The translations under genes and the position numbers were made by a program. Under the pieces are notes generated by a model. The model was not told the DNA's origin. It was given only the letters and a program-made list of their open reading frames with translations, and made no database searches. Positions 7,601 to 47,172 of a stretch of 64,000 nucleotides of DNA are shown here, piece by piece. The stretch comes from Ianthella basta (Eukaryota > Porifera > Demospongiae > Verongiida > Ianthellidae), in the NCBI GenBank assembly GCA_964019415.1, contig OZ025878.1, forward strand, positions 4,654,512-4,718,511, read 5' to 3'. Each line of letters starts with the position of its first letter. Position 1 is the stretch's first letter.

Positions 7601-10600
7601 AAACAAGTTCATGCATGAGCATATTGCCTTACACAAACTGCGAGATTAAGCATTTTCTGAATAGTGTCAAAATAGTATCCATGCTGGTCCTGACCCCCTG
7701 GTATGTACTTCTACTGCATGGATGTGCTGTCTGCCCTCACGAAATGCGCTTTGACCCAACCATACTTTATGTTAGTCAGCATTATATGCACCATGCACTG
7801 CCAGTGCTCTTCTCTGTAGTGACTATGGCACACTTTATGTACAGTGATGTTTCTGTATGGTTCAACTGATGAATAATGGTACATTTCAGTGTCAATTTAT
7901 TGAAATCACTTCTGTGCATGTAATCTGCTACTGTTCTAAAACATAATATTACAGTAATGTTGCCAATACAGAGTGTGACTCTAGTGAGTGACTCTACAGA
8001 ATGTAGGAAACTCCAATTGGGATGGTTGAGCTTTTACAAATGAAGATGATGAAGGACCTATGTGTTTCAATATGAAGCCATGCAAACGCATCTAGTTTCT
8101 ATGCCATGCAGGGGAATGTCTGACAATGTTGTTGTGTAGGGGAGAGCTGGTTTTGAAGAGGCCCTGGAAAATGGTGTGACTAACAATGTCATCAATTGCA
8201 CAGCAGCTGACAAGCCAATTCATGTTGTCAACCTGTGGAAAGTCTTTACAGAGGGTGACTCTAGGAAGGCTAGCAATTAATCTGCCAACAACTATGTATA
8301 CTATAGATGCCAACTGATTGGTCAGTTGTAATTTATATAATGCATTTCATACAGTTCCCCAATCAGTGCCTCTTTCAAGTTTGAACTGCTTGCACCTGTG
8401 CCCGCATTTCACACCCTTGAGCCAATTTAGGCAGTTTAATTTGCTGCAACAGAAATTATCACCAAAGCTGTTCCTGTAAGGAGACAGAGACCACGTTTGG
8501 GGTGATGTTTGTCCAATCACTATCCAATTTGGTAAGTAATGATGTGTAAGTAATTTTTCTCTATCATGTCTCATTTGTTGTACTGTCCCCCTTTCCTGTG
8601 AATACAATATACATATTCCAATTCAATTGCAATTTATGTAATATTTCTATAAAGTTATTCTGCAGACTGTACAGTATTATTTTATTGTATTGTATTATTT
8701 TCTATACATTCATGTGTGCTGTTATGTATAATTATTTGGTAAGTGACTGTTTTCACAAGCAGTAATGGTCACACATAACAATCACCTAGCATAGCAAACT
8801 GAAAAAGCAATAAAATTGTTATTTTATTATACAATATTCTTACACAACAGTTACTATAAAATGAGTAACTATATCATAAGGTAACAAGTGCATGAATGGC
8901 AACCCAGTACTAGTGCTAGCCTACACGAAGACTGGATGATTTAAAATTCAAATCAAGTCCCCAAAATAAAGATATTGTATACTGTATATATTTATGCTAA
9001 GTAATTACTTACCACATTCCTGCACTGCGTTCTGAAAGATCCTATTTGATAACTGAACTCTGAAATCTGCAACAAACATTGCTACCTCCTGTGGCATGTC
9101 AGGATTTGCTACCTGCCCATTTCTCAGTCGCAGATTGCCTTGCCTGTCTCCACAGAGCCCACACAACTGACTCAGAGAACCACTGGCACTGGATATGCTA
9201 ATGCTAAGAAAGGGCTCTGCTCCAAGACTCTTCAAGACTGTAACATTTCCTTCAGCTGCTACTATTCCAAATGAAATACCGTTGCTAGATATTCTAACAC
9301 CACCACCACCACTGACATTAAGGATGGAGCTGTTATGAAATAAAGTGACTACTCTTTCCATCCACTGAATGGCAATATGGTCCACTACCAGATTCTCACT
9401 CTTGAAGTTAACTTGAACATGTGGGACATTCTGACTACCATCTAGAGAGCAAGTGGTTACCAGTTCGTACTCGCATGTCTCCTGGAATCGGTAGCCACTT
9501 AGTCGTGTGAAAGGAAAGATCTGGAGCGAATGAACAAGGCATTGCAGTTCATCATCTGAAGAGAAAGAAGGAAAGTACAATGAAGGATAAGACCTGCCTT
9601 CATGTTACAAGTGGATATGCTAAAATAACCAAAATTAATTTTTGTGGTGTCTTTATATGGGTGGACATGAAATGTCATTGTATGCAGAAGGTATAAAGGC
9701 ACTAGTGTGTGCAACTTCATGGCACACATCCTCACAAAGAAGGCTGACTACGGCTAACATTTATTGACATTTACTGAAGTGTATAATATGGCATACACTT
9801 TACCATCAACAGCCAAGACAATGAAGTTTATCATTCGGGGACTTCATTTAAACAATAATCTTGTGGGGCTCAAAGGCATTTACAAGGAAACTCACAGCAA
9901 CGGTACACAATTCACCATCAAATTGTATGTAGTGGTGGAAAGGTTAAGGCTAAATACCAGTCTTGTGAAATGCTGCTATAAGAGTTACTGAATGCAGTGA
10001 GATGATGAAAGCAGAGTGCTTTAAGCCACAGTACAACAGGGTCAGATGCATGCAAATGTAGATACACATTGTTAAGACTGTCAACTCATATTAGGGTTCA
10101 GGCAAGAAGGGGTTTGACCCACATCCTGCTCAAGAGCAATGCATTTTACTTAGGTTGCTACTAGTCTGTTAACATTCTGTCAGGCTACACACACACTCAG
10201 ATAGAAATGACTGCAAAAAGTTGCTCATATAATAATTATCATAATATAATTCTTCTACTTGCATTGAGGCATTGAGGCAGCACAAGTTACTTTGTATGTA
10301 ATCAGGATTTTGTTAGGACAGATCAAAGGGAATTGCTGCTGTATATTGCATTATTGTATAGTATTCCATAAAACTTCCCATGCATTGCAATCAGTACAAT
10401 GGAGATCAAATTAATTGCATTGCATCATGAGCTCTTAATGCAATCAATCACATACAAGACTCCTAACCTACTGTATGTAGTATGTACGTATAGTGTACTA
10501 TAATAGCCAATAACATATAACTGATATCTCTATTACAACGATAACTGCTAGTGGTAACTGAAGTGTTAACTCAGCAAATGTTTGATACACATTTAATGCT

Positions 10601-11869
10601 TAATATTATATCCCATTCCACTGCCAAGAGGGTTATCCTACAGAGTGGGCCACCTCGAGCTCACTGAACCTTGACTTCATGAAAGTACACACTAGGACTT
10701 CCTAACAATGTAACAGGTAACATTTTCCTCTTGGTAGATAATTTGTTTACCACATCTTTGGCTTCTGTTAACCAAGGCTTTAAAAGTGAATTGACAGTGA
10801 AATCAATACATGGCAAGTAAGTTAAAAACAAAGCGAGGCAGTGAAGCTGTATACCAATCAGCTTGTGAAAGTGATTCATAGCTATCATAAATTATATGTA
10901 TGGATAGGAATGGAACACTTGTCCAGTAAAACAATTATAATTATATTGCACAGTGTTTGCAAGTAGATCAAAATTAATTACTTGTTGTACAAATTATAAA
11001 GTAAGCAACACATCGTATGGCACAAAATTTTCACGGGAGAATATTTTCGCAAATCTTTAAATTTTGGCTGAAACTGAAAATATTCTCGGGAAACATTTCG
11101 CCCTACGTGAGAGCTATAGCCGCCCACTCCTTCTTCCAAGTTGACACGCTACTTTCCTTGAAAGGACGGCCATAGAACGCTTTGGAAAAGAATCGTTCTA
11201 GCTGTGCTGCTCTTTTCCCAATACTAGCCTTTTCATTCGGGTGTACTCGTACGTTACGCGTCATGAACTGCAAGCAGTATTCTCTGTGCCTGTATTGGTG
11301 CTGATGACCTTCTGATCTTCTCCCGCGAAACCTTTGTGCTATACGGCGTTTGAAACCTTCCGGTCTGTGCAATTAGCCGACGTGTCCGAGAGGCCACTAG
11401 GGACCACGTTCCATGCACACCTCCTTCCGCAAAAGAACGTTGATAAAGGCACTGGTGTTTAAAGTAGACCTTGTAACATTTCTCTTCGTCATCGAAGTAA
11501 AAGTAAAGTAGTCAATGGTACTTGAGATCAGGAAACATTGCTGAGCGAGAACGGCTGGTAGCAATAGCCCCGATAAACTGGGTATTCTGCATGGTTTCAA
11601 AAAGCGCGAGCCACAACCGAACTAACTCCTATGTAAGGCATCGCAGCCAAAAGCAAGGTGTGTGATATGATGGGTGATTGTAAAGACAGTAAAATCTTTC
11701 TGAGCTTGACATTTATGAGTGACCCAACGAGTAGCGTTTTAATAACTCCATGGCGATTAAAACACGTCTCTCTAATTAGGCCGTCGCCCTCAAACTCACT
11801 GGATACTTGCGCTGTGCTGTGTGTGACAAGCATTGGTAGTAGAACCACGGCTGCCAACGAAATCCTCAT
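2275..11869 (-). CDS. Adhesion G-protein-coupled receptor with VWD-like, HormR, GAIN/GPS and 7TM parts (19 exons)
   Basis: Plasma-membrane adhesion (class B2) GPCR. Exons in coding order: 11800-11869, 9013-9555, 7179-7414, 6903-7081, 6751-6802, 6617-6685, 5998-6142, 5752-5913, 5582-5669, 5096-5213, 4717-4929, 4559-4644, 4370-4481, 3359-3515, 3068-3173, 2923-2989, 2709-2827, 2509-2635, 2275-2397. They total 2772 nt, 924 codons with the stop, and every junction keeps frame and has GT/AG ends. Domain order: signal peptide 1-23, VWD-like about 24-204, hormone-receptor domain 205-283, GAIN about 284-625 with the GPS cleavage motif HLT at 608-610, seven TMs 626-900, short basic tail. The family normally self-cleaves at the GPS and signals through G proteins after the tethered peptide is exposed. 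The NH2 end is unusual: the VWD-like exon is shared with neighbouring receptors. Confidence is high in the architecture, moderate in single splice sites. Confidence 0.88.
4717..7081 (-). CDS. GAIN domain and GPS motif exons of the adhesion GPCR
   Basis: Eight exons (6903-7081 to 4717-4929) code for the helical and beta-sandwich GAIN region, with motifs such as STERVANVIAS, VNVVMNNMENYLP and ASRVLSSQIPG. The last exon holds the GPS: CAFFNF, GGWSYRG, THVRC and SHLTSFVVL. The HLT tripeptide is the normal autoproteolysis site. Two of the four usual GPS cysteines (in the GC and CxC positions) are Val and Ala here. Both members of what is normally one disulfide are absent, which looks like compensated loss rather than random decay. 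Confidence 0.82.
6287..6320 (-). ncRNA. Degenerate hammerhead-like core in an adhesion GPCR intron
   Basis: Minus strand: CAG, CTGAAGA, AGGTCTTTCATGAC, AAAAC, GTC, TG. It follows the same order as the better cores but with an imperfect second box and weak stem I. Probably a fossil. Confidence 0.25.
7179..7414 (-). CDS. Exon 3 of the adhesion GPCR: hormone-receptor (HormR) domain
   Basis: The exon reads CPNEEDSVWRIQWPATAPD, then VACQREG, then RRCLAGGVWDSVDASECES. This is the C-x-W-x-C-x-G-x-W-x-C arrangement of the HormR domain that commonly precedes the GAIN domain in adhesion GPCRs. The first two bases complete a Val codon with the last base of the VWD-like exon. It ends in phase 0 before the first GAIN exon. 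Confidence 0.82.
7415..9012. other. Intron 2 of the adhesion GPCR
   Basis: Lies between the VWD-like and HormR exons. Several short open frames exist, none with domain features or splice support. I see nothing further. Confidence 0.6.
9013..9555 (-). CDS. Exon 2 of the adhesion GPCR: VWD-like domain
   Basis: This single phase 1-1 exon codes for 181 residues. Landmarks match von Willebrand type D folds: [16 protein letters not shown] resembles the YxFxGTCxYxL region, and [11 protein letters not shown] resembles the CGLCGxFxGN motif. The usual GDPH start and the acidic Ca2+-site residues after CGLCG are missing, so it is a derived VWD. It is the most divergent of the four copies in the window (the others are at 16717, 37109 and 45780). 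The symmetric phase lets it be added or removed without breaking frame. Confidence 0.78.
9556..11799. other. Intron 1 of the adhesion GPCR
   Basis: Contains the left limit of unit 1 (about 10896) and a segment at 11030-11230 with ttcacgggagaatattttcg-type sequence, shared with 39640-39800. An open minus-strand frame at 11103-11372 is not kept in the unit 2 copy and is probably not coding. Confidence 0.55.
11800..11869 (-). CDS. Exon 1 of the adhesion GPCR: signal peptide
   Basis: The ATG at 11869 opens 23 codons beginning MRISLAAVVLLPML and ending STAQVS, a classic signal peptide with a hydrophobic core and a small-residue cleavage region. The exon ends in phase 1 at a strong donor (gtgagt). 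The next acceptor, at the VWD-like exon, supplies two bases and restores frame. A near-identical copy without an adjacent adhesion GPCR lies at 39867-39936. An in-frame TTG upstream is not needed as a start. Confidence 0.8.
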
Positions 11870-12546: not shown

Positions 12547-13349
12547 TTAAATGTATTCATAGTTACCACCACCCGAGGCTGCAGAAAATGTAAAAGCACA
12601 CAATATATAGTCAATTTCAAAGTCAAACATTGCACTTACATAATTATTGCAGCAATTGCACAAAGACACTGGATGGAAATCAACTAAAAGACGCTCACAG
12701 CACAGCTGCTGCCACTCAAGGTGTTTTCTGTCAGCTGTACAAACAACATTTTTAGGAATAACATTAGTAGGCCACTAACTGTGGAGGCTGCTATGACCTC
12801 AGGTATGAGGTGGTAACCTGAGTCAGCATATCCAACCATTGTTGGTTATCAAACGGACTGTATAGTAAAATTAAAGGTAGATAGACTATTAATTTATTTG
12901 TTGTTAAGTCACCTCAGTTATGAAGTGCACACATGTTAATCAACCCACATTTTTCATTACCAGTGATTGTTGCATATAAATCAGAGGTTTCCTGTGTGAC
13001 CAAGTAACATGGGTTTGACTCCATCACCACTACATCTCCTATTGCAGTGTAGGCAGGATTGGCCTGCATAGTCACAAATGCTGTTGTCTCAATAGGAAAA
13101 AATCCTACAGTAAATATACAGGATGCTTAGTATAGAGATGGTCATTAGTAGCAGATTCATAAGAGAAGTGGAGCTCCATACCCAGTCCTTGGAATGGAAA
13201 CAGGCTCTGATTTAGACAAGTGTTGTGATGGCATTGCTTACCACTGAGTTGCTTATTTATGGATTTTGGTTGCACTGCTAGTCCTCCTGCAATGTAGGAT
13301 GGATTGTCCTGCATTTTTACGATGGCATTAACTCCAGGAGAAAATTCAC
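12547..13349 (-). CDS. Cytoplasmic tail exons of NPxY receptor copy 1
   Basis: Three exons. The first two look like duplicates of one another: each carries the pattern M-Q-x-N-P-x-Y-x-A (MQDNPSYIA and MQANPAYTA). The second adds NPCYLV and SDLYATI. The last exon is only 32 nt and ends GGGNYEYI with a TAA at 12549-12547. No kinase, phosphatase or death-fold domain is visible. Confidence 0.8.
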
Positions 13350-16300
13350 CTATAGCAGAACAGATGTGACACAAAAATGTGGTTCTGTTGCACAAACATG
13401 TAAATAAATGTACATAGCTACGTAGCTAGGGAAAGGAAAGGTATGAATTGTAAAGTCATGCACTTCAGCCTGTATATTACTTTCACAATGTAGACCTGTG
13501 CAAGCGATAGGAAATATGACAGCCATCCAATCCATGCTTTACTTGGCTAGTGTAATTTGTGTGACCCAGTGAGTGTAGGTAAACATTGTGCACTCAAAGC
13601 CATACATGCAATGAGCTTATTCTGGCAATCACAAGTTGTGTGAGGAATCATTAGTCACTTGAAATGCATTTGCAGTAAACCACACCCTTCTTCACTACCA
13701 ATAACAGATTATCACAAATTATGCAAGAATAATGTTTATCATTGTACACCTGTTAGCTGCATATGGTGCACAATGGTAGGGATTTGTGAGTACAGACTGA
13801 ATCTATGGCAAAATGAAGGACCAGGTCTGTCAAATTCAATGCAGCCTATAGCCAAGGCAGACCTTACAAAGGCCAAGTGGTTTTCTATTAGAGATCAAGA
13901 AAACAATCCCAAAATGCAGGATAACACTAGTCTAGGATTTGCTATTATAACATTCATCATGTATTAATCCAGAGTGTGAAGACTGCAGACAACTCTAACT
14001 GACTGTGTCAATGCTCAATGTGTGCAGCTCATGACCTGCACAGCATGTACAGTACAACTTGAAGGGTACAGGGCACTGACGTGGACAAATGAAAGTCATG
14101 TGTTTGCAACAACAACAATCAAGCTATGCATTTCTCATTACCGGTACATGCAGGTGCAAGTGTGCACTAAAGCATTAGCTAACCTGTGTATCTTTCCCCT
14201 TCTTTACCACTCCTTCTCACTCTCCATGCAATTAGTGTAGCAGCAGCAGTAACTGACCCAACCACCAGGGCAGCCACAGCTGTTGTCACCGCTACAATGA
14301 TAACCCACTTCACTCGTACAATGGGACCATCACTAGGTGACATGGTCATTTCATCAATCTCTGATGAGGGAGCAACAGAAGGTTTTGGAGAAAGTGGAGT
14401 GGTTGTTGATGCAACTGAAGTACTAGTGATGCTTGGCACTGTGCAAGAATAGAGCAAAGTAATAATAACAATTTAACTTGAGTCAGTTCTATAAGTAAAG
14501 TAAGGGGTCATGCTGGTCGTTGCCTGCTGAGATTTTAGTCATCTATACTTTTATGATAATTTTATTATATAAATTATAAGCTGTTATTTGAAACAGAAGA
14601 GAGAGTGTTCTGTTTCATGGAGCTGAAACCTGGACCTTAACTGAGCTGCTGACATCATGGTCTGCACAACCTACAACTACTTGCTGCACAAAGCCTTGAA
14701 TGTACCCTGGAAATATCAATCACTAAGGTATAACTGTATGGGAACCTACCACGAGCAGATGACATTTTACATAACCAGTGCCTACACTTCACTGGTTTTG
14801 CAGCTCACTACATTGAAGACAGATATTAACCAGTTGCAGACCTACAGTGCTCCAAATCACAAAGGTTCCTTATCTGTCATTGAGGAAGCTAAGGACGCAT
14901 CTTTGGTATATTTCATAATAATTTCTTAGCCTTCCCCTTCATTACAAACTTCAGAAGCAAAGTTATTTGCTAAAAAGTGTGTTTATAGTGCCTAAAGTGT
15001 TTAGATAGGATCTTCCCAACAAATATGAGTTAAGCTCCCATTGTTCTTAGCGAATGCCTGGATAGTTGCACAATAACATACTAGGGGTCTCCACTGTATG
15101 GTTTGCCTAACTCACCTATGATTATGCAACAGACAGTGGGAATTTGCTTCATGGAATTATGGCTGACATTTTAAAGCATATTTATTTCTGGAATTACACA
15201 TTTATAAGTTATTTAATTTGAAAAAATGGCGGAATGGTGAAGGTGCTGACCGGAGCGGGTGATTTGTCGCTCATTGAGTATCGGGAACAGACTAAGTATG
15301 TCCGAAGCTCGATTAGAATCGATTGCGGAAGCAGATTCTCGAGCGAGGTGCGCGGTATGTCGGCGTCCTGTGGCCCTGAGAAGAGATGGCGCCATACGCG
15401 TACACGGACCGCTTGACCGCTGCGCTGGATCAGGAGAGACGCCAAGTACGGTTATCCAGGATACTGGCACTGCTTGCCATCCCCCATCACAGGCGTCCGC
15501 AACACAGACACCGACTCCGCCAGCAGTGACGGCAGGCCCCACCAGACCTCAACGCGTTCCAATCTTGAAGAGGCTTCCCCGAGCTTCTCGGGATCCAGCC
15601 GCTAGGAAGCTTGCAGCAAAGGGCCTGGGACAAGCCACGGGTACAGGCCACCTCCAATGTCTTACTGGAGACTGCCCTGGATCCGCGAGCATGGACTAGG
15701 CTTCTTGCCACCGCCACCAAGGAATCAGGTGCCTGGTTACATGCCCTGCCCATTACGTCTGGGCTCAGGATGGATGATGAAGTTGTGAGAGTTGCTGTGG
15801 GACTTTGCCTAGGGGTGCCATTGTGCCAGTCACACCTCTGCAGCCGGTGCGGAGCATTAGTTGATGAGTTAGCCACTCATGGCCTAAGTTGCTCCAAGAG
15901 CCAAGGTCGACATCCTCGACATGCTGCCATCAACGAGCTGATCCAGCGATCTTTCATCACAGCTGGAATCCCTGCGCAACTGGAGCGCACTGGAGTTTTT
16001 GTTCTGATGGGAAGAGACTGGATGGGTCCACGGTGATGCCCCAGAGGTGCGGTAGTGCCCTAGCATGGGACGTCACATGCCCAGACACCTACGCCCCCTC
16101 CCATCTGAGATTGGCCACAAGCGAAGCTGGCGCCGTTGCAGAGCAGGCTGAAGTGAGTAAGAGCATTAAGTATGCTGACCTTCAAGCAAGTCATCACTTC
16201 GTTCCAGTGGGGATTGAAACATCCGGAGTGTTCGGACAGGAGGCACTCTCTTTCATCCGAGAGCTCGGACGCCACTTGCAAGTGAAGACAGGAGAGCCCC

Positions 16301-18125
16301 AGTCACATTTCTACCTGCAACAGTGGGTTGCTGTAGCCGTGCAAAGGGGGAACACGGCTGCCGTGATGGGGACGTGCATGAGAACTGACAATGACGATGT
16401 CTATGACTCCTTGTATTGTTGAGTGCTAATTTTGAAACGGAACTAATTAGTGAACTTCATATGCACAGTACAGGTAATGCTAAACGTTTGGCAGTTGCAG
16501 CGGCATATATAGAAGTCATGGCATCATTCCAAGTGGGAACTAGACCAAAAGCTAGTTGTTCATTCCTTCTAGATCCATGCAGCAACAGATCTCTTTGATT
16601 ATGGAATAGTTATGGTAACATGCATTGTCCAATTGTACGCACACCTTAAGTTCTGCAAAAAAGAAAGCAGTGCAGCCACAAACATGAGCATGTGCACTCA
16701 AACACATGCTACTCACCACATTCCTGCCTTGTGCTCTGAATGAGCTGATTAGTGGACTGAACTCTGAAATCTGCAGCAAGCATCTCTACTTCTTGTTGAT
16801 TTGTAGGATTTGCTGTCTGTCCATTTCTCAGTCGTAGATTGCCTTGTCTGTCTCCGCACAGCCCACACAACTGACTCAGAATACTACTAGTACTGGAGAT
16901 GGTAATTCTAAAAAAGGGTTCAGTTCCAATAGCTCTTTCCAATATAATGGTACCAATACCATTGTTTGGTGTAATTGTAACTGAACTGCCTATACCATTT
17001 GTAACATTTCTGGAAAGCCTGGATTGACCATTTCTTATTGTTGATACAAAGTTGTTTTCGTTAATAATGGCGAACCCATTCATCCACTGAATGGTAATCT
17101 GACTGACTTCAAGTCTCTCATTCTTAAAGTCAGCATGAACAAGTATTGGGGACTGCAGACTGCCAGCCGTAGAGCAAGTAGTTATCAGTTCATAAACACA
17201 TGTTTCCTGGAAGCGATAGCCAATTCTTTGTGTGAAAGGAAAGATCAGAGACGAACCAACGACACAATTCAGTGTGCCAGCTGAGGAGGAGGAAGGTATA
17301 GAACAGCATGTTATGTAGATGGTTGATAGTAATTTAATAACTTTCAAACAGCTTACGTATAGGTGGATCTGCTCTAAGTTATTGAGCACTATATGGAATT
17401 GGAGTATAAATTAGTACAGGATGTCATGATTTGCAAGGTTAATGTGATCCAGTGGACTAATGCATGCGCATTATACAAGACCATCTCCATATTATACAAG
17501 GTATGACAAACATTTGCAGTTCTTGCAGTGAGTCTGTCTGTTTCAAATCCAGGTGACAGTACTGCATAAAGCTTACTTATGGAGAGGTTCCATTAGGTCA
17601 TTTAATTACACAAATTGGTGTCCTTTGTGCCTTGGTATAGCTGATTAAAGCATCTACCTACATTGCATGTATATTCACACCTTAATTTGCATATTACCTT
17701 GACTGCACAATCTTTGTGGGTAGTAACTCATTTACATACAAACTTAAACTTGAAAATCCCTAAACTAGTAGCTGCCAAATTGTGTGTCATCTGCAATTTG
17801 CTAAAGATTAATACTTGACTGTATGCCCTATCACGTTTGTGCATAATTATATCTGTGCAGGCAGAAACTGACATATCACAACAGGCAAAGTCTAGAACTT
17901 CTTAGCTGTGTGGACTTGGAAAAACATTTGACATTAGACTGCTTAATTGAGGTATGCTCCTGTATAGTCCATTTAAGGAGGGTCATGTATGCAAAAGGAG
18001 ATCATTTGCAGTCAAGGGTACTGGAATGTATGCATTTGCGAGGCTGGCAGCTTACGGGATAATCGCCTTGTGCCAAGAGCTACCAGTGTCGCCAGTAGAT
18101 CCACAACAGTCAACAGGGCAGCCAT
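12547..18125 (-). CDS. Single-pass VWD-like receptor with triple-NPxY cytoplasmic tail, copy 1
   Basis: Type I membrane protein, 390 aa, six exons: 18056-18125 (signal peptide), 16717-17280 (VWD-like), 14184-14438 (stalk and TM), 13242-13349, 12961-13104, 12547-12578. All internal junctions are phase 1, so every internal exon is symmetric. TM is about residues 256-283, with basic WRVRRSGK on the inner side. The tail carries NPSY (312-315), NPAY (348-351) and NPCY (363-366) and ends NYEYI. NPxY sequences are known docking and endocytosis signals read by PTB-domain proteins. The function here is inferred from that alone. There is no catalytic domain. The large second intron (14439-16716) holds a retroelement remnant. 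I do not recognise a named family. Confidence 0.82.
14184..14438 (-). CDS. Exon 3 of NPxY receptor copy 1: Ser/Thr-rich stalk and transmembrane helix
   Basis: 85 codons, phase 1-1. The first half is a low-complexity stalk rich in Ser, Thr and Pro (likely O-glycosylated). Then come VKWVIIVAVTTAVAALVV and a second hydrophobic stretch, ending WRVRRSG as a stop-transfer signal. It joins directly to the VWD-like exon, so the ectodomain is just one domain plus stalk. Confidence 0.8.
15298..16430 (+). mobile_element. Internally deleted retroelement remnant (N-terminal zinc finger joined to C-terminal CCHC/endonuclease-like part)
   Basis: Plus-strand coding remnant in the intron of NPxY receptor 1. 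It starts with an ATG at 15298 and an N-terminal part with CAVCRRPV...HGPLDRC, a zinc-finger-like element. At about 15610 it passes in another frame into a C-terminal part with CSRCGALVDELATHGLSC (CCHC-like), then SDGKRLDG and LAWDVTCPDT, which resemble the RPD...D core of a restriction-like endonuclease. The reverse transcriptase expected between them is missing, and a frameshift lies near 16000. GC content is clearly higher than the surroundings. The clade is uncertain; an endonuclease-bearing non-LTR type fits best. Confidence 0.6.
16717..17280 (-). CDS. Exon 2 of NPxY receptor copy 1: VWD-like domain
   Basis: This 564-nt phase 1-1 exon codes for 188 residues with [16 protein letters not shown] near the start and [17 protein letters not shown] near the end. 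It ends QEC plus the first base of the next codon, exactly as in the adhesion GPCR exon. It differs from the copies at 37109 and 45780 at several sites, for example SRLSRNVTNG instead of [10 protein letters not shown], and it lacks one Ser codon. Confidence 0.8.
18056..18125 (-). CDS. Exon 1 of NPxY receptor copy 1: signal peptide
   Basis: ATG at 18125, 23 codons starting MAALLTVVDLLATLVALG, then a phase 1 donor. The same exon occurs at 38412-38481 (kinase A) and 47103-47172 (NPxY receptor 2). In this copy a hydrophobic Ala is replaced by Asp, and the AQLS end has become RRLS, so the cleavage region is less ideal than in the paralogs. About 40 nt upstream all three have a pyrimidine-rich ctgcag acceptor-like site, suggesting a 5' UTR intron. 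Confidence 0.72.
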
Positions 18126-25984: not shown

Positions 25985-26069
<85 letters not shown>

Positions 26070-26088
26070 ACTATCACCAGACACATGA

Positions 26089-26128
<40 letters not shown>

Positions 26129-26285
26129 CACACACACACACACACACACGCACACACATACACATGCACACACACACACACACCGCACACACACACCACA
26201 CACACCACATGCACACACACATCACACACACACCACATACACACACACACACACACACCACATACACACACACACACACACACAC

Positions 26286-26335
<50 letters not shown>

Positions 26336-26996
26336 ACACACACACACAAACCCACAACACATGCACAGAGAAATGTCCAGCAGACAGACACATGACTGCT
26401 TATAGCACGTGCATTTACAGTGAGTAATTACAGAAACATAATATACCAAGGAACCCACAGTCGCCAGAGTAGCTAGTGGTCTGTGGTGGCAAAAGCTACG
26501 TACGTTTGCTACAGCGCAGTACGCGTGGGTCAGGTTCTGAAGAGCATTTAGAAGGGCAACCGTGCGAGTTAAGCTTTTCAACGCTAGAAACGGTTGAATA
26601 ACGTTAGCGTGTACATATCACGGCGTTCACCAGTTTCTACGTTACTCCTGTCATGTGTTCCAGGCGGCGGAGTGAAGTCCTCCGAAGCGGCGCGCCCATT
26701 ATCGAAGAAGGCGCGGGGCGAAGTCGATGACCTGTTGGGCGCTGTCTCGAAGCTGTGTCTTTGCCCGTCGACCAGAAGTACTGTAGGAGTCTGTTCCAGG
26801 ATCAGAGGCGGAAGAGAACGTCCAAAGTTCGCTAAAACGTCGTTTGGAAGCCGGTTTTCAAAGTCCCTTGGCCTCGCACACGGTCCACTTCCGGCCGAAT
26901 AAAATGGCCGACAATATAAATTCCCTATACCCAATACTTCGCCCAATACATTCAATATAAATGTAAGCATTGACGTACAACCGTAGGTTGGCGTAT

Positions 26997-27027
<31 letters not shown>

Positions 27028-38000: not shown

Positions 38001-38481
38001 ACTTTACACCTTTACACTTTACCTTGCCTGTACAATTTTTTGTGGCTACTAACTCATTTTACACGCAAGACTTGAAAATCCGAATCCTTAAATTAGTACC
38101 TGACGAATTGTGCGTCATCTGCAATTTGCTAAAATTAGTACTTGCAAATGATTGTACATTTTCACTATCAAGCTTGTGCATTTGTCTGTGCAGGCAGAAA
38201 CTGACACATCACAAGAAGCAAAGTACATGCAGCGATTCTTTGTTGTGTGGACTTGGAAAACACTTGGGATTAGGCTGGCTAATTGAGCTGCCCCTGGATA
38301 CTCCATTCAAGGATGGTAGTGTGTGCAAAAGGAGGTCATCTGCAGTCAAGTGTACTGGAATGCCGGCACTATATAGTTCGCGATCTTGTCCGTTCAAGGT
38401 CCGTAACTTACGGGATAATTGCGCTGTGCCAAGAGTTGCCAGTGTTGCTAGCAGAGCCACAACCGTCAATGGGGTTGTCAT
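23596..38481 (-). CDS. Receptor tyrosine kinase A with VWD-like and Calx-beta ectodomain (19 exons)
   Basis: Exons in coding order: 38412-38481, 37109-37675, 34724-34861, 33939-34280, 33488-33832, 33209-33403, 32619-32771, 32354-32533, 31968-32174, 30199-30402, 29422-29620, 29217-29265, 28799-29015, 28490-28686, 27541-27663, 25165-25370, 24985-25025, 23994-24090, 23596-23845. Total 3780 nt, 1259 aa, all frames consistent. Order: signal peptide 1-23, VWD-like to about 212, Calx-beta series about 213-800, TM about 823-847, juxtamembrane, tyrosine kinase about 900-1200, short tail ending EDNTG. All ten exons up to the TM exon are joined in phase 1. The kinase has every catalytic residue, so it should be active. 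The ligand is unknown. A second signal-peptide exon at 39867-39936 could splice into exon 2. Splice choice at the TM exon (phase 2 donor) is the least certain. Confidence 0.85.
24555..24755 (-). other. Unrecognised open frame inside a kinase A intron
   Basis: About 65 codons with protein-like composition ([19 protein letters not shown]), without an in-frame upstream ATG, ending TAA. The unit 2 copy at 53323-53523 differs by one residue. It lies between two kinase exons that splice directly to each other, so it is not needed by the kinase. It may be a fragment of a mobile element. Confidence 0.25.
25354..25419. repeat. 33-bp direct repeat of a splice acceptor (two copies)
   Basis: The sequence gatagcagatactcctatac recurs with a 33-bp period at 25357 and 25390. 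It covers the 3' splice site and first bases of the catalytic-loop exon of kinase A. Unit 2 has three copies (54125, 54158, 54191). Confidence 0.85.
25440..25859 (+). mobile_element. LINE reverse-transcriptase fragment, 5' part (split by an insertion)
   Basis: The plus-strand frame contains [38 protein letters not shown] and then, after a shift, LYGCEDWC. These match the thumb/3' region of RTE/CR1-like non-LTR reverse transcriptases (KTK-x-M, YLGS-x-I-x-DG, Y-GCE-W). It lies antisense in a kinase A intron. The remainder is at 27090-27310. Confidence 0.65.
25988..26348. repeat. Long (AC)n microsatellite
   Basis: About 360 bp of AC dinucleotides with interruptions near 26070, 26126, 26184 and repeated accac steps. 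The long His/Thr and Cys/Val open frames here are artefacts of the repeat. Confidence 0.95.
26587..26930 (-). other. CpG-rich open segment inside the unit-1 insertion, possible captured gene fragment
   Basis: A minus-strand frame of about 100 codons is open from about 26930 to the stop at 26587, with protein-like composition (for example [19 protein letters not shown]). CpG is far more frequent than in the flanks. An ETS-like CCGGAAGT lies near 26893. It could be a captured first exon or promoter of a host gene. I do not recognise the protein. Confidence 0.3.
26995..27023. repeat. (TA)n microsatellite
   Basis: About 14 TA units inside the unit-1 insertion. Confidence 0.9.
27090..27310 (+). 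mobile_element. LINE reverse-transcriptase fragment, 3' part
   Basis: Continues the fragment at 25440-25859 after the 1.23-kb insertion: [19 protein letters not shown] and [15 protein letters not shown]. This is the C-terminal end typical of such elements (R-R-I-x-GVSR...ED-I-R...K-x-V). Confidence 0.6.
29217..29620 (-). CDS. Transmembrane and juxtamembrane exons of receptor tyrosine kinase A
   Basis: Exon 29422-29620 starts with a Ser/Thr/Met-rich stalk ([11 protein letters not shown]). It then has [18 protein letters not shown] as the TM helix, then [11 protein letters not shown] and ERYSALYC. Two overlapping donors exist (gtgagt in phase 1 and gtatgg in phase 2). Only the phase 2 donor joins the next exon (29217-29265, [16 protein letters not shown]) without a stop. 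Tyrosines here could regulate the kinase, as juxtamembrane tyrosines do in many RTKs. Confidence 0.75.
30199..34861 (-). CDS. Calx-beta ectodomain exons of receptor tyrosine kinase A
   Basis: Eight phase 1-1 exons. At least three Calx-beta domains straddle exon borders. Markers include [13 protein letters not shown] with [21 protein letters not shown] with [10 protein letters not shown], and [18 protein letters not shown] with [10 protein letters not shown]. These follow the family pattern of an acidic Ca2+-binding E-x-D-E-x-F strand followed by a V-x-I-x-D-E end. The exons at 32619, 32354, 31968 and 30199 are Cys-rich and more degenerate. They look like Calx-beta halves ([23 protein letters not shown]), but I rate this as weaker. 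Numerous N-x-S/T sites fit an extracellular location. Confidence 0.75.
30599..30633 (-). ncRNA. Hammerhead-like core, left arm
   Basis: Reads GCAG, CTGATGA, AGGCTTGGGTCT, GAAAT, GTC, CTGC on the minus strand. The two arms of the fold-back carry the same core in opposite directions, each with a different single lesion. Confidence 0.42.
30661..30696 (+). ncRNA. Hammerhead-like core, right arm
   Basis: GCAG, CTGACGA, AGGCTTTCAGGCC (stem II), AAAAC (one change from GAAAC), GTC, CTGC. Stem I is GCAG/CTGC and the cleavage triplet would be GUC. Confidence 0.42.
31428..31735. repeat. Dispersed ~300-bp repeat with hairpin end, copy 2
   Basis: Intronic in kinase A. It shares tagcctttcagccagcacac, gacagtttggta and the terminal tttctttaactcgaaatac with the other copies. 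Confidence 0.5.
32893..33090. repeat. Intronic segment with perfect hairpins
   Basis: cctattgatggcaa and ttgccatcaatagg form a 14-bp perfect inverted repeat with a 6-nt loop (about 32908-32941). cctccaa and ttggagg form another at about 33065-33083. It is also present in unit 2 near 60455-60635. CpG is locally high. Unknown small element. Confidence 0.4.
34862..37108. other. Intron 2 of receptor tyrosine kinase A
   Basis: Separates the VWD-like exon from the first Calx-beta exon. It contains a 16-bp palindrome (gactatagctatagtc) near 35058, a ggggctactgcccc hairpin near 35079, and near 35320-35340 (minus) a gaaacgtctt box that may be a decayed hammerhead core. No coding exon was found. Confidence 0.5.
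37109..37675 (-). CDS. Exon 2 of receptor tyrosine kinase A: VWD-like domain
   Basis: A 567-nt, phase 1-1 exon with [16 protein letters not shown] and [18 protein letters not shown]. It resembles the NPxY receptor 2 exon (45780-46346) more than the NPxY receptor 1 exon: both share [18 protein letters not shown]. The exon splices to the first Calx-beta exon at 34861. Confidence 0.8.
38412..38481 (-). CDS. Exon 1 of receptor tyrosine kinase A: signal peptide
   Basis: ATG at 38481; [18 protein letters not shown] followed by TAQLS and a phase 1 donor. It is paralogous to the first exons of both NPxY receptors, which shows that the promoter-proximal part and the VWD-like exon moved as a block between the kinase gene and the NPxY genes. 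Confidence 0.78.
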
Positions 38482-39366
38482 TTTGCGCCACAGTACAGCT
38501 ACTGGGAGATGAGCCTGCAGAGAGAGAATACCGTATCGATAAGTTGTGGAGATACGAAACATCCTCCGTAGCCAACAGCCAAATAATGTACGAACTCACT
38601 TGAGTAAAGGTGTCACAATGGAATAGAAATGCTGTGCATACCATTTTATTGAACCAGGCATTTCGTCAATCACGTTCTAATACTTGCATTTCTGTAGATT
38701 GAAGCTTCCTGAAGCCGTATGCTAGTCCAGTGGGTATTGACGCTACTACCGCAGCACATGACTAGTTGTATAGAGATAACAGTCATATTGTGCCATGTAT
38801 GGGCAATTGGCGTAAGAAGCCAGCATATGCTACGACCAAAGAAAGCGCACCAAACTAGCCATAGAAGCCACGGGCCTCCCACAATACTATAGTCTTCATC
38901 AGGAAGACGGGCGGCTTTGCAGCCAGGCAATGTTGACTATCAAGAATCCCTTGTGTGCATTTACAGCAGGGAACAATGCATTGTGGTATTTGCTGACTAA
39001 ATGGATGGATATGCCACTGTAAGACATGTAGGGCATGGACCTGGTCTCCTGCATGCTGCACTAGACTAGGAATATACCACTTGGGCCCAATGTTTAGTAA
39101 TGCAGATGTACATTACTATATAGCATAGGACAGCTAGTGGAGTCCCTCTGTACTAAGGAGAGAGACATCAGCTTGACTTGAACTTAGCAATATATACTGA
39201 GGGCATGTTAGCTATGTACGCAGCTGTTGCCATGGTAGAACACCATATAGCTACTCTGGCAATTGTGGGTTCCTTGGTACATTATATTTCTGTAAATATA
39301 CTGACTGTAAATGCATTTGCTGTAAGCAGCCGTGTGTCTGTCTGTGCTGGAGCTTTCTCTGTGCAT

Positions 39367-39378
39367 ATGTGTGTGTGC

Positions 39379-39452: not shown

Positions 39453-39453
<1 letters not shown>

Positions 39454-39866: not shown

Positions 39867-39936
39867 TGGATACTTGCGCTGTGCTGTGTGTGACAAGCAT
39901 TGGTAGTAGAACCAAGGCTGCCAACGAAATCCTCAT
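39867..39936 (-). pseudogene. Orphan signal-peptide exon, copy of adhesion GPCR exon 1
   Basis: 70 nt, intact ATG (at 39936), 23 codons with one Val-to-Leu change from 11800-11869, and an intact gtgagt donor in phase 1. No adhesion GPCR lies downstream. The next compatible acceptor on this strand is the VWD-like exon of kinase A at 37675. It is either a relic carried along by the tandem duplication or an alternative first exon. Confidence 0.6.
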
Positions 39937-40609: not shown

Positions 40610-40643
<34 letters not shown>

Positions 40644-40688: not shown

Positions 40689-41192
40689 GGATACACATGC
40701 CTAATAATACAATCACGCCAAAAAATTATTATTGTTTTGGTTACAGCCCCTATTTTTGTATAGGGCACATAATTATGTACGCGATAGGTTACTCTTAAAT
40801 GACCATGATCGTAGTTGAGGCTCATTGCATGCATGTACTTCAGTAATCTTGCTGATGACTGTTATATAATAGTAGAAGTTGGTAGCTAGTCTGCCGGGGG
40901 CCTACAGTGCCCTGTACCATAGTATGTTCAAAGGAAATCTTTCACCTTCCTTTGTGGCTTCCAACACTTGCCTTTGTACACAGAGTACAATATAGGGACT
41001 ATAGGGGTATAGTATAGTATATAGGGAATAGATTGTATATTAATCAATCAATCAATGATATTAGAGTACATCATGCCACACATGCACTAGGACACAATAT
41101 GGTCCATAGTAGCACTACATGAGTCATGAACTACATGAGTCATGAACACATAATATTAGTTATTTTTCCTCAGAGTTCTGATTTGGAAACCA

Positions 41193-42243
41193 TTAAATGT
41201 ATTCATAGTTACCACCGCTTGAGGCTGCAGAAAATGCAAAAGCACACAATATATAGTCAATTTCAAAGTAAAACATTGCACTTACATAATTATTGTAGCA
41301 ATTGCACAAAGACACTGGATGGAAATCAACTAAAAGACGCTCAAAGCACAGCTGCTGCCACTCAAGGGGTTTTCTGTCAGCTGTACAAACATTTTCAGGA
41401 ATAACATTAGTAGGCCACTGACTGTGGAGGCTGCTATGACCTCAGGTATGAGGTGGTAACCTGAGACAGCATACCCAAACATTGTTGGTTATCAAACTGA
41501 CTGTATTAGTAAAATTTAAGGTAGACTGATAATTTGTTAGTTGTTAAGTCACCTCAGTTATGAAGTGCACACATGTTAATCAACCCACCTTTTTCATTAC
41601 CAGTGATTGTTGCATATAAATCAGAGGTTTCCTGTGTGACCAGGTAACATGGGTTTGACTCCATCACCACTACATCTCCCATTGCAGTGTAGGCAGGGTT
41701 GGCCTGCATAGTCACAAATGCTGTTGTCTCAATAGGAAAAATTCCTGCAGTAAATATACAGGATGCTTAGTATAGAGATGGTCATCAGTAGCAGATTCAT
41801 AAGATAAGTGGAGCCTCATATACCCAGTCCCTGGAATGGAAACAGGCACTAGGTAAAGGCTAGGAGTTTGTGACAACTGAACAGTGAATGCTTCCATCAA
41901 TGCGATACAGATACACTGCTTTGAATGATGTCAGACAGATGTAGTGAATTACATAACCTCATTCTATAATAATGAAAGCAAGGGGAGGGGTGCAAGTAAA
42001 CCACCAAGCAGCAACAGATCTTACATAGGTAACACTAGGTGACTATAATAGGTAACAATGCATTTTGCACAGAGGTTTGAACAGAGACTGGGCATTAATA
42101 GAGATTTAGACAAGTGTTGTGATGGTGTTGCTTACCACTGAGTTGCTTATTACTAGATTTTGGTTGCATTGCAAGCCTTCCTGCAATGTAGGATGGATTG
42201 TCCTGCATTTTTATGATGGCATTGACTCCAGGAGAAAATTCAC
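41193..42243 (-). CDS. Cytoplasmic tail exons of NPxY receptor copy 2
   Basis: Exons 42136-42243, 41601-41744 and 41193-41224 carry MQDNPSYIA, MQANPAYTA, NPCYLV and SSGGNYEYI. The intron between the first two contains about 240 bp (about 41845-42105) absent from copy 1. Confidence 0.8.
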
Positions 42244-45200
42244 CTAAAGCAGAACAGATGTGACACAAAAATGTGGTTCTGTTGCACAAACATGTAAATA
42301 AATGTACATAGCTACATAGCTAGGGAAAGGAAAGGTATGAATTGTAAAGTCATGCACTTCAGCCTGTATACCACTTGCACAATGTAGACCTGCGCAAGCG
42401 ATAGAAATTATGACAGTCATCCAATCCATGCCTTGCTTGGCTAGTATATTTTGAGTGACCCAGTGAGTGTAGGTAAACATTGTGCAGTCAAAGTCATACA
42501 TCTCCACTAATTTATGTATCTAAGGCAATCAGCTTATTCTGACAATCACCAGTCATCCAAGGAAGCATTATTCACATAAACTGCATTTGCAATAAATCAC
42601 ACCCTTCTTCACTACCAATAACAGACTATCACAAATTATGCAAGAATAATGTTAATCATTGTGTGAACCTGTTAGCTGCATATGGTGCACAATGGTAGGA
42701 ATTTGTAGTAATTATGGCAAAATGAAGAACCAGGTCGATGTCTGTCATATTAAAAGCAGCCTATAGCTCAGGCTGACCTTCTAAAGGCCAAGTAGATTTC
42801 TATTAGAGATCAGCAAAACAATTCAAAAATGCAGGATAGCACTAGATTTGCTATTATAATTAGCTAACCTGTGTATTCTTCCCCTCCTTTACCACTCCTT
42901 CTCACTCTCCATGCAATTAGTGCAGCAGCAGCTGTAACTGACCCAACCACCAGGGCAGCCACAGCTGCTGCCACCGCTCCAATGATAATCAACTTCACTC
43001 GTACCATGGGACCATCACTAGGTGACATGGTCATTTCGTCTATCTCTGATGATGGAGCAACAGAAGGTTTTGGAGAAAGTGGAGTGGTTGTTGTTGTTGA
43101 TGCGACTGAAGTACTAGGGATACTTGGCACTGTGCAAGAAAAGAGCAAAGTAATAGTAACAATTTAACTTGAGTCAGTTCTATAAGTAAAGAAAGGGGTC
43201 ATGCTGGTTGTTGCCTGAGGTTCTAATCATCTACACTTTCAGGATATATAAATTATAAGCTGTTATTTGAAACAGAAGAGAGAGTGTTCTGTTTCATGGA
43301 GCTGAAACCTAGACCTTAACTGAGCTGCTGACATCATGATCTGCACAACCTACAACTACTTGCTGCACAAAGCCCTGAATGTGCCTTGGAAATATCACAT
43401 CACCAATGTATAACTGTATGGGGACCTACCACTAGCAGATGACATATTACACAACCAGTGCCTACACTTTACTGGTTATGCAGCTCACTTCATTGAAGAC
43501 AGATATCAACCAGTTGCAGACCTACAGTGCTCCAATCACAAAGGTTCCATATTTGTATTGAGGAGATAGCTAAGATCCAAAAATGCTAAGTAGTGCCTAA
43601 AATGTTTAGATAGGATCTTTCCAACATATATGAGTTAAGCTCCCATTGTTTCCTAACAAATGCCTGGATAGTTGCACAATAACATACTAGGGGTCTCCAC
43701 TGCATGGTTTGCCTAACACACCTATGATCATGCAATAGACAGTGGGACACACCTATGATCATGCAATAGACAGTGGATTTGCTTCATGGAATTATGGTTG
43801 ACATTTTTAAGCATGTTTTTTCTGGAATTGCACATTCATAAGTTATTTCAGGTTCATATTTCACAGTGAAGGAAGGTTCTTTCATAAGGTAGATAATGTT
43901 TGTTTCATCACATAGTAATACCTATGTTATCATCAGTATGTGATTGTGGAACCTTTAGGATTGGAGCATTGTAGTACTCTGGCAGGGCTCAGATCCTATG
44001 TGAAGGGAGCAGGGAAGCAGAAAGACATTTTTTGACACAAATATTCAGGATTTGGGAGGACAAGTGGCAGTTGCAGAAGTTTAAAGATGTGCTGCAAACA
44101 GAGAAGGATGGTTTAAGCAAATCAATTAGCTACATAGGCCAGTTACCAACTTACAGGCACGCACAACGCTTTCATGGACGTAAACCTACTATAGCTTCTT
44201 TTAATGTAACACCAGTGCTGTAATAGGATGATGAATGTATTCAAAATGTATTTATACAGCTATGTACAAAATACTACTGTACTACTAAATGTTGATCATG
44301 CATGTTTTCATTAAAGAATTGACATAATGCATTCCATGTACCTTGTCCACTGCCAGGTGATGAAGTTGGAAGAGGTGACAAGAGCAATGATGATACCTCG
44401 CTGGAAGTTGTGCCTGCATTGGCATAGCATATTTACTCTTCACTATAAATGCCACTAACTAAACAGCACATGTACAGCTAGCCACACTGCAATATGAACT
44501 GAAGAGGACCTCTCAGAGCAAATAAAAAATTGATAGAGCAGCATGACTGCTTGCTTCGCATGTGCAGAATATGTACATTTATTGTCTACATATGAAAGAA
44601 TGCAGTTCATGACATGATAGGAACTAATTGTTTGCTAGCATGTGTTGTGAGCTGGCTGTATCTGTGGCAACAGTGTATGTATGTACAATTCACAGCTGGA
44701 AAGGATATGGTGAGAAGAAAAGTCAGCCATGAATGAAGCTTGAATCAGGACCTGCAAGACTATTTATGTACATAGTAGCACAAATAGTGAGATGGAGTAC
44801 CACAATTACTGTCCATCTCAGACTCATGGCAATAGGCTGATGTGACTCTGAGTCAATTTGAGCTCACCATCACACAGTACAATCTTACGACTGTGGATTC
44901 AAGTGGTCACAGCATTGAAGCACACACTAAGCTAGTACAAAGGAGTGAGGGCTGAATGGCTGTTGTCAGGGTATATAAATGGCTCAGTGACTGAAACTAT
45001 GTGATACAGTATAGGTCCCAGGCTTGAGCCCCAGTTGAGGTGAATTTCTTTCTCTAAACATAAACATCCTTTTGAGTTGTAGGTTTGATACTTGCTACTA
45101 TGACCTTATATATATATATGTATATTCCTTAATCTACCATATCATGTTACTTAAGCAGATCTAATCTCCTTGATCTCTGATGGTAGACGAACCACCCAAT

Positions 45201-47172
45201 GTGCACAGACGCTTAAGGAGCACATTCTTCTTTCCCACTCAAAGGTAAAGATGTTGCATGGCGATGCCTGTCCTGAGTAGCCTTCTGCACTGATTTCTGT
45301 AAGTGACCAGAGGTTGTCAATAACTGATCTATAGCAGTGATGTCTTTAATCTGAAATTGACATAATCATATCGCCGGGGAATTGGTTGCACCTGGTGATT
45401 GACTATGCTTATGCTCCCTAAAGCATGAAGTACGTGGTCAGGAATTAAGGTGAGTGATACAAGGGTGTGATCTTAGAGTTCTAATTTTGAAAGGGAACTA
45501 ATCAGTGAACTTCATATGCACACTACAGGTGATGCCAAACGTCTGACAGTTGCCGTGGCATAGATAGAGGTCATGGCATCATTCCAAGAAGGAAGTAGAC
45601 CAAAAGCTAGTTGTTCATCCCTTCTAGATCCATATGCATGAAACAAAAATCTCTTTGATAATGAAATAGTTACTGTAAGTATCATTGCTCAATTAATGTA
45701 CATGCACCTGTATATAGGTCTGCAGAAAACTTTGCAGCAACAGAACATGTGCATATGCACTCAAACACTTGCTACTCACCACATTCCTGCCTTGCACTCT
45801 GAAAGAGCTGATTAGTGGGCTGAACTCTGAAATCTGCAGCAAGTTTCTCTACTTCTTGTTGATTTGTAGGATTTACTGTCTGTCCATTTCTCAGTCGTAG
45901 ATTGCCTTGTCTGTCTCCGCACAGCCCACACAACTGACTCAGAATACTACTAGTACTGGAGATGGTAATTCTAAAAGAGGGTTCTGTTCCAATAGCTCTT
46001 TCCAAAATAATTGTACCAATCCCATTGTTTGGTGTAACTGTCACTGAACTGCTGCCTATACCATTTCTAACATTTCTGGAACCCCTGGATTGACCATTTC
46101 TTATTGTTGACACAATGTTGTTTTCGTCAATATAGGCGAACCCATTTATCCACTGAATGGCAATCTGACCGACTTCAAGTCTCTCATTCCTAAAGTTAGC
46201 ATGAACAAGTATTGGGGACTGCACACTGCCAGCTGTAGAGCAAGTGGTTATCAGTTCATAAACACATGTTTTCTGGAAGCGATAGCCAGTTCCTTCAGAG
46301 AAAGGAAAGATCTGAGACGAATGAACATCACAATTCAGTGCGCCACCTGAGAAGGAGGAAGGTACAGCACAGCATGTTATGTGGATGGTCGAAAGTAATT
46401 GAATGACTGTCAAACAATGTATAGGCAGATCTGGCCTTATATTTTAACTACTTTAGGGAATTGAAGTAAAGATCCCTACAGGATGACATGAAATGCATGC
46501 TTCATGTGATCCAGTGGAATGGTGCACATAATATATATATACAAGGTATTGACAAACAGTATATGTAGTTCTTACAGTGAGTCTGTCTGTTTCCAGTCCG
46601 AGTGGCAGTACTGTGTGAAGCTTAATTATGGAGAGGTACCATTAGGTCATTAAATTACATAAATGAATGTCCTTTGTGCCTTGGTAGAGCTGTTTAAAGC
46701 ATCTACCTACATTGCATGTATACCTACACCTTAATTTGCACATTACCTTGACTGCACAATCTTTGTGGGTAGTAACTCATTTTACATACAAACTTAAACT
46801 TGAAAATCCCTAAACTAGTAGCTGCCAAATTGTGTGCCATCTGCAATTTGCTATAATTAATACTTGACTGTATGCACTATCACGTTTATGCATAATTATA
46901 TCTGTGCAGGCAGAAACTGACATATCACAACAAGCAAAGTCTGGAGCTACTTAGCTGTGTGGACTTGGAAAAACATTTGACATTAGACTGCCTAATTGAG
47001 ATGCCCCTGTATACTCTATTTAAGGAGGGTCGTGTATGCAAATAGAGATCATTTGCAGTCAAGGGTACTGGAATGTATGCATTTGTGAGGCTGGCAACTT
47101 ACCAGATAATTGCGCTGTGCCAAGAGCTACCAGTGTTGCCAGCAGAGCCACAACAGTCAACGGGGCAGCCAT
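41193..47172 (-). CDS. Single-pass VWD-like receptor with triple-NPxY cytoplasmic tail, copy 2
   Basis: Exons 47103-47172, 45780-46346, 42869-43129, 42136-42243, 41601-41744, 41193-41224; 393 aa, same architecture and same phases as copy 1. Differences include two extra Thr codons in the stalk, an extra residue in the VWD-like exon and GRLAMQPKSS in the first tail exon. The three NPxY motifs and the NYEYI end are conserved, although the rest of the protein and the introns have drifted. That suggests both copies are under selection. The signal peptide [18 protein letters not shown] with GTAQLS is more canonical than that of copy 1. Confidence 0.83.
42869..43129 (-). CDS. Exon 3 of NPxY receptor copy 2: stalk and transmembrane helix
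   Basis: 87 codons, phase 1-1. It has a Ser/Thr/Pro-rich stalk with a run of four Thr, a hydrophobic span containing IIIGAVAAAVAALVVGS, and WRVRRSGKGG after it. It is two codons longer than the copy at 14184-14438. Confidence 0.8.
43130..45779. other. Intron 2 of NPxY receptor 2
   Basis: The stretch of about 43853-45475 has no counterpart in unit 1, where the retroelement remnant sits instead. A plus-strand open frame at 44032-44223 is unrecognised, has no splice context and is not called. Confidence 0.5.
45780..46346 (-). CDS. Exon 2 of NPxY receptor copy 2: VWD-like domain
   Basis: A 567-nt phase 1-1 exon. It opens [18 protein letters not shown] and carries [16 protein letters not shown] and [17 protein letters not shown]. 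The segment between these ([17 protein letters not shown]) is the most variable part among the four copies, which would fit the exposed face of a binding domain. Confidence 0.8.

Follow-up and report, generated by a model that had tools for sequence, protein, structure and literature searches.

The window analyzed here is a 64,000-nucleotide stretch of the genome of the sponge Ianthella basta (contig OZ025878.1, referred to as C11, 8.2 Mb; positions 4654512-4718511), and it carries part of a tandem array of predicted receptor genes in which exons for a VWD domain head three different signaling ends. In the genome searched (209 Mb, 96 contigs), the array comprises 12 VWD-headed copies over 246 kb (C11:4.558-4.805 Mb). 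The chassis exons behind these heads belong to a G-protein-coupled receptor (GPCR) in two cases, to a receptor with cytoplasmic NPxY motifs in seven and to a kinase in two, the remaining copy being a fragment. All of the receptor genes under discussion are on the minus strand. Those in the window are an adhesion GPCR gene (G), two NPxY genes (N1 and N2), and two receptor tyrosine kinase genes (K1 and K2), the second kinase being cut by the window edge, as an earlier sequence-only reading had stated. Other members of the array are referred to as N3, N4, V1, W, X, Y, and Z. The window contains a tandem duplication (12024-36453 and 40689-64000) in which an N-plus-K unit occurs twice, at an offset of 27.5 to 28.8 kb, with 95.8 to 99.5% identity between the kinase parts and 86 to 91% between the NPxY parts. 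As this duplicated unit makes up most of the window, N1/N2 and K1/K2 are duplicates and not independent cases.

The four VWD exons in the window were found at exactly the coordinates that had been read from the sequence (Table 1). They are 543, 564, 567, and 567 nucleotides in length, all divisible by three and free of internal stops, with acceptors that end in TTCAG or CTCAG and donors that read GTAAGT or GTGAGT. Their description as phase 1-1 exons, each behind a signal-peptide exon ending in phase 1, also held. Only the G head passed the Pfam VWD (PF00094) cutoff of 22.9 bits; the other three window exons scored 15.8 to 19.8 bits, and the heads of V1, Y, and W were above the cutoff. A 13-sequence profile of the heads recovered the FCGBP VWD domains among Protein Data Bank (PDB) sequences (E value of 3.2e-16), and CGLCGD and a final EC were invariant in all 13 aligned rows. 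The K1 and N2 heads share 90% and 86% identity, respectively, with that of N1, so that kinase and NPxY heads could share a ligand and one cue could have different outputs. The GPCR heads are only about 50% identical to the other array heads, which makes a common ligand across the two groups doubtful. Separately, P0005 and P0007, from one Mb-sized contig, match the heads of N4 (94%) and G (91%), and P0004 and P0008, from another contig, match the N4 and V1 heads at 99 to 100%; the two pairs are possibly alleles, in which case the heads would be polymorphic.

Behind the first of these exons lies, as had been proposed, a GPCR with a signal peptide, VWD head, HRM, GAIN region, GPS, and seven-transmembrane (7TM) part. 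The GPS (36.8 bits) was found beside a 7tm_2 match (40.7 bits, profile positions 4-126 of 250), both above their cutoffs, and the HRM, an optional domain in this family, was slightly under its cutoff (25.3 versus 26.2 bits). HLTSF is present in the G frame, a putative sign of GPS autoproteolysis. In a separate region, C12:4.78-5.04 Mb, 7tm_2 matches filled 33 rows, of which 30 lie in single open frames longer than 650 amino acids, in contrast to the multi-exon GPCRs of the array.

N1 and N2 were likewise recovered as NPxY-tailed type I receptors, consisting of a signal peptide, VWD head, Ser/Thr/Pro stalk, transmembrane (TM) segment, and a tail with NPSY, NPAY, NPCY, and LYATI. When the N1 tail was shuffled 200,000 times, three NPxY motifs, the number in the real tail, were never obtained and two were obtained 14 times; all three motifs have M at position -6 relative to the tyrosine. 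None of the models of N1, N2, N3, and G showed Calx-beta. Retroelement-like open frames were noted by eye inside an N1 intron (window 15250-16422, plus strand), and a lone NPxY last exon without a matching TM exon lies upstream of V1 (C11:4.564 Mb, L028).

K1 proved to be a receptor tyrosine kinase with a signal peptide, VWD head, three Calx-beta stretches, further ectodomain, TM segment, and kinase, and thus carries an ectodomain of its own besides VWD. Its Calx-beta stretches and its kinase domain (PF07714, 169 bits) scored above the Pfam cutoffs. VAVK, HRD, and DFG are present in the kinase frames, with the TM exon preceding them, and the best PDB matches of the kinase by sequence were EGFR, VEGFR, and FGFR chains. 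Both K1 and K2 retain a GPCR-type signal exon upstream, which in K1 is a possible relic or alternative first exon.

When the exons were joined in silico, none of the five models contained a stop: N1 (395 amino acids), N2 (398), and N3 (398; outside the window), the first six exons of K1 (552), and the first four of G (342). A different account of the same exons is that those for VWD encode separate secreted proteins, with the receptor exons downstream forming part of transcripts that start independently. In 9 of the 11 copies examined, the third codon reached by reading through the VWD donor is a stop, so that intron retention would yield a soluble VWD protein, and the gap from the VWD exon to the next exon is 1.6 to 2.65 kb in the four window genes. 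However, the third-codon stop arises because the GTRAGTA donor is in phase 1, and matching phase-1 acceptors carry the frame on in N1, N2, N3, K1, and G. A search for signal exons (E up to 1) turned up no second match between the VWD exon and the TM, HRM, or Calx exons in the window, although it also missed the signal exon of N1. Separate secreted proteins are considered very unlikely.

Evidence for movement of the heads came from their flanks, where the baseline identity of unrelated sequences is approximately 31 to 49%. The VWD exon of N4 is 96% identical to that of N3, whereas its downstream intron is 93% identical to that of Y and 41% identical to that of N3. Similarly, the VWD exon of X is 77% identical to that of G, whereas its downstream intron is 87% identical to that of N4 and 46% identical to that of G. 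In N4 and Y, the 3' end of the VWD exon is repeated approximately 40 bases downstream, with a W-type donor, as exon replacement would leave as a scar. In a tree of the tail exons alone, N4 fell into one group (100/100) together with X, Y, and W. At the level of these alignments, the mosaic boundaries between head and flank demonstrate exchange inside the array.

The K1 head lies in a block shared with N2 and N3 (Table 1) that ends in the intron preceding the first Calx-beta exon. Relative to N3, identity is 89% in the upstream intron (400 bases), 94% in the VWD exon, and 87% downstream. As homology runs through both introns, the idea that a lone exon had been inserted into the kinase gene was rejected; the sharing between kinase and NPxY genes is attributed to local duplication or recombination. 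The symmetric-exon shuffling put forward in the sequence-only reading therefore stands with respect to one head family on three chassis, phase-1 borders, and exchange in the array, but not, between the kinase and NPxY genes, as insertion of a single exon, given the intron-containing block.

A tree was constructed from the VWD exons of 11 copies, with head groups by tail type named beforehand; the groupings tested for X, Y, W, and N4 were chosen only after the mosaic had been noticed. The heads of K1 and K2 grouped with those of N1 to N4 (100/100) and the X head grouped with the GPCR heads (100/100). A single clade for all NPxY heads was rejected (p-AU, 6.5e-39), as were, post hoc, grouping of X with Y and W (p-AU, 1.8e-6) and of N4 with X, Y, and W (p-AU, 3.8e-7). 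The NPxY heads may represent an older stock from which the GPCR and kinase heads each branched off once.

To place the chassis in their genomic context, relatives without this VWD head were sought. For the kinase, at least 169 exon-level matches were found among the best 150 of 1,100 candidates, on C11, C4, C13, C7, C2, C21, and C22, and for the NPxY TM and tail exons, 58 matches (125 of 125 candidates scored) were found on C11 (the array locus), C15, and C22. A genome-wide Pfam scan yielded 64 VWD matches (66 of 66 candidates scored), with none on C4, C13, C15, or C2, and, among the matches listed, none on C7, C21, or C22 within 390 kb of any kinase or NPxY relative. As Pfam misses some derived heads, absence of the head elsewhere rests on the two genome searches jointly. 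In a 5-kb part of one of the C15 NPxY relatives, a head exon with a phase-1 donor and a possible phase-1 acceptor was identified, and it matched no Pfam domain, VWD included. Next to the window, at C11:4.642-4.654 Mb (L019 and L020), a GPCR on a G-type 7TM chassis with an N-type signal exon has two SRCR domains (93.6 and 55.0 bits) and an FN3 domain (44.4 bits) as its heads, with no VWD in their place. Its SRCR exons have phase-1 borders; the FN3-HRM border looks to be phase 2, so this head swap departs partly from the phase-1 rule. Elsewhere, other VWD genes lie in tandem, approximately 3.2 kb apart, at C21:1.535-1.571 Mb. In the same region as the array, C11:4.570-4.611 Mb (L023 to L028) contains NLR-type parts, including a NACHT frame (72.1 bits), a Death-domain frame (25.0 versus 22.6 bits), and frames that appear repeat-like by eye.

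The locus probably consists of cell-surface receptor genes in tandem, with one family of signal-peptide/VWD heads that is carried on three chassis and has passed between members of the array. The grounds for this are read directly from the DNA: homologous heads, intron phases, open joins, three unrelated tails, chassis relatives that lack this VWD, and mosaic boundaries. A signal-peptide/VWD head, possibly derived from an aggregation factor, would have been placed before a GPCR, a Calx-beta kinase, and a short NPxY receptor, and as the joins fall at phase-1 introns, the head would be replaceable with the frame intact. The spliced receptors would be made and displayed at the surface, where the VWD head may bind a matrix or cell-surface partner. 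The predicted outputs are via GAIN/GPS, with GPS autoproteolysis, and G proteins for G, tyrosine phosphorylation for K, and PTB adaptors or endocytosis for N; conjecturally, one cue could be reported through all three pathways.

Table 1. Predicted features of the receptor genes in the window (window coordinates)
Feature	Position	Strand	Basis
G exons TM2 to TM7	2278..4540	-	Pfam; TM4 to TM7 by eye
G exons for GPS motif and TM1, separated by an intron; GPS donor position provisional	4559..4929	-	Pfam
G GAIN-region exon	6903..7081	-	Conservation with other copies, not Pfam
G HRM exon, acceptor phase 1	7179..7414	-	Pfam near cutoff, in silico splice
G VWD head exon, phase 1-1	9013..9555	-	Pfam VWD 26.3 bits
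G signal-peptide exon (MRISLAAVVLLPMLVTHSTAQVS), donor phase 1	11800..11869	-	Splice-site reading
N1 last exon, NPAY, NPCY, and LYATI	12917..13104	-	In silico splice
N1 cytoplasmic exon, NPSY	13242..13349	-	In silico splice
N1 Ser/Thr/Pro stalk and TM exon, phase 1-1	14184..14438	-	In silico splice
N1 VWD head exon, phase 1-1	16717..17280	-	In silico splice
N1 signal-peptide exon, donor phase 1	18056..18125	-	In silico splice
K1 tyrosine kinase exons	23599..29015	-	Pfam 169 bits
K1 TM exon	29426..29620	-	
K1 additional ectodomain exons, no Pfam match; provisional borders from 33.2 to 30.2 kb	30199..32771	-	
K1 four phase-1 exons, three Calx-beta stretches	33209..34861	-	Pfam 86.5 bits
K1 Calx-beta exons	34724-34861, 33939-34280, 33488-33832, 33209-33403	-	In silico splice
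K1 head block in common with N2/N3, about 2.5 kb, introns and exons 77-92%	36322..38834	-	Sequence comparison
K1 VWD head exon, phase 1-1	37109..37675	-	In silico splice
K1 signal-peptide exon, donor phase 1	38412..38481	-	Splice-site reading
K1 extra GPCR-type signal exon upstream	39867..39936	-	Open, good donor
N2 last exon, NPAY, NPCY, and LYATI	41557..41744	-	In silico splice
N2 cytoplasmic exon, NPSY	42136..42243	-	In silico splice
N2 stalk and TM exon	42869..43129	-	In silico splice
N2 VWD head exon, phase 1-1	45780..46346	-	In silico splice
N2 signal-peptide exon, donor phase 1	47103..47172	-	Splice-site reading
K2, second Calx-beta receptor kinase copy; VWD exon outside the window (64656-65222)	52387..62408	-	

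A number of results weigh against this reading. The splice sites were recognized by their consensus in a single genome, and the exon joins are predicted from DNA; when the spliced N2 model was compared with the database (best 8000 candidates), only the unspliced VWD frame P0001 matched, leaving the joins without support from a database protein. An AlphaFold model of the N1 head, made from the 13-row alignment, had a pLDDT of 48.8, and a PDB fold search with this low-confidence model returned no matches at an E value of ≤0.001 and 833 at ≤10; neither result was used. All three NPxY motifs have Q or E at position -5, where a hydrophobic residue is typical of many PTB sites, and N4 has NLSY instead of NPSY. 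One of the distant VWD genes (minus strand) has a kinase relative approximately 4 kb away, at C11 6.354 Mb (plus strand); the two are not fused. On the head tree, the number of tail-type changes is two, the minimum for three types, and was as low in 3 of 200 shuffles. Two changes being enough, each chassis may have gained its head just once; the head tree was therefore dropped as proof of repeated shuffling, and the argument for repeated exchange rests on the flanks. There, exon-sized exchange is visible in N4 and X, of which X is broken, and on tail coding exons a grouping of N4 with N1 to N3 was not rejected (p-AU, 0.074), so that regrouping of N4 by tail coding sequence alone is not significant.

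The low number of tail-type changes also suits plain tandem duplication and divergence, in which a VWD receptor gene would have been duplicated and ordinary unequal crossing over would have substituted a GPCR for its downstream part in one event and a kinase in another. Any later exchange would then amount to gene conversion among paralogs, with no functional meaning. The repetition of a single unit in the window and the intron-containing block shared by K1 and the N genes both fit this process. It accounts less well for N4 and X, in which exon and downstream flank come from different lineages, and for the heads, most of which remain open, and a cluster with several outputs results in any case. 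This explanation, which overlaps the exchanged-head array on anatomy, is quite possible, if somewhat short of probable.

The remaining adverse points concern damage and constraint. Five array members look damaged: X has a frameshift and a lost donor; V1, the other VWD-headed GPCR, has a stop in a GAIN exon, leaving only G without a visible defect; the TM exon of Y is cut short; N4 lacks the usual stalk acceptor; and Z is the fifth. Among the 10 intact heads (45 pairs), dN/dS was 0.45 to 1.12, indicating weak constraint, and constraint was also weak in the first tail exon (0.00 to 1.46, 21 pairs) and the TM exon (0.00 to 1.08, 10 pairs). For the last NPxY tail exon (15 pairs of six copies, with X left out), dN/dS was 0.15 to 0.94 and below 0.5 in 12 of the 14 pairs with a value. 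Only this exon is clearly under more constraint than the heads, and fast heads with conserved tails was rejected as a general pattern. The defects in X, Z, V1, and Y and the dN/dS of the heads could mean that much of the array is decaying, consisting of redundant receptors with weakly constrained heads and no recognition function. Nevertheless, 10 of the 12 VWD copies keep an open frame and splice sites, with dS of up to 0.72, no stop occurs in the joined parts of G, N1 to N3, and K1, and the kinase residues are intact. Widespread decay is thought rather unlikely.

The nearest VWD domains outside the array were found in four distant genes at 2.84, 5.47, 6.36, and 8.06 Mb of C11 (L031/L032, L033, L034, and L035). 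Read by eye, each combines Calx-beta exons and a VWD with a C-terminal part that is conserved, and no TM segment was identified in them. In two of them, the stretch from VWD to the C terminus was compared with Pfam, giving VWD matches of 25.1 bits (6.36 Mb, above the cutoff) and 15.0 bits (8.06 Mb, below it), together with a match to ITI_HC_C below the cutoff in the 6.36-Mb piece; a C-terminal exon of the 2.84-Mb gene matched no family at an E value of ≤0.01. The VWD of the 6.36-Mb gene has phase-1 borders and is 39 to 40% identical to the heads of G, N1, and W. Sponge aggregation factors combine Calx-beta with VWD and have a C-terminal Wreath domain. Sponge aggregation factor genes with this combination were reportedly described by Grice et al. 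in 2017; literature searches yielded no account of it. The four genes may be aggregation factors, a reading offered as a lead. K1 resembles such factors in having both Calx-beta and VWD, with the candidate genes on the same contig, and the genes of the window differ in ending in TM and signaling parts.

A more far-reaching interpretation is that the array forms a sponge self-recognition or matrix-sensing complex, in which heads derived from aggregation factors, whose role is treated in the part of PMC8380372 available, reached the three chassis by shuffling, with exon-bounded recombination taking place via phase-1 introns. Three pathways would then report a single cue, on an aggregation factor or a neighboring cell, with head variants spreading between outputs. 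This scenario is regarded as quite unlikely.

Receptors with very similar ectodomains and different signaling ends are described for vertebrate immune clusters, in the portions of PMC3533184 and PMC2413239 available, as paired receptors. The ends of those are activating or inhibitory, whereas here one VWD head family precedes 7TM, kinase, and NPxY chassis. Adhesion GPCRs of Amphimedon (PMC4302439, in part) share the HRM-GPS-7TM chassis and have SRCR heads, as in the 4.642-Mb neighbor, but the text contains neither "von willebrand" nor "calx." Ectodomain shuffling is likewise a known theme for receptor tyrosine kinases in the holozoan kinome (PMC8662651, in part), a text that also lacks both terms. 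According to the available part of PMC12716839, holozoan adhesion GPCR ectodomains include Calx-beta and HRM, and sponges have fusions of 7TM and tyrosine kinase; these fusions are single proteins, whereas the outputs of the array are on separate genes sharing a head, and "von willebrand" and "vwd" do not occur in the text. In literature covered by titles and abstract openings, with subscription papers mostly outside, no VWD-headed GPCR or kinase receptor was found in sponges, nor, in titles and abstract openings, was sharing of a head across 7TM, kinase, and NPxY chassis. As far as these partial sources go, similar heads with different ends are already known from paired receptors, and the new part is that three receptor classes share a head at one locus.

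As some of the recombination boundaries can still be read, the array offers a concrete system in which the origin of modular receptors can be tested. If the link to the four Calx-beta/VWD genes holds, its members would also be candidate cell-surface partners for sponge aggregation factors, the partners of which are poorly known.

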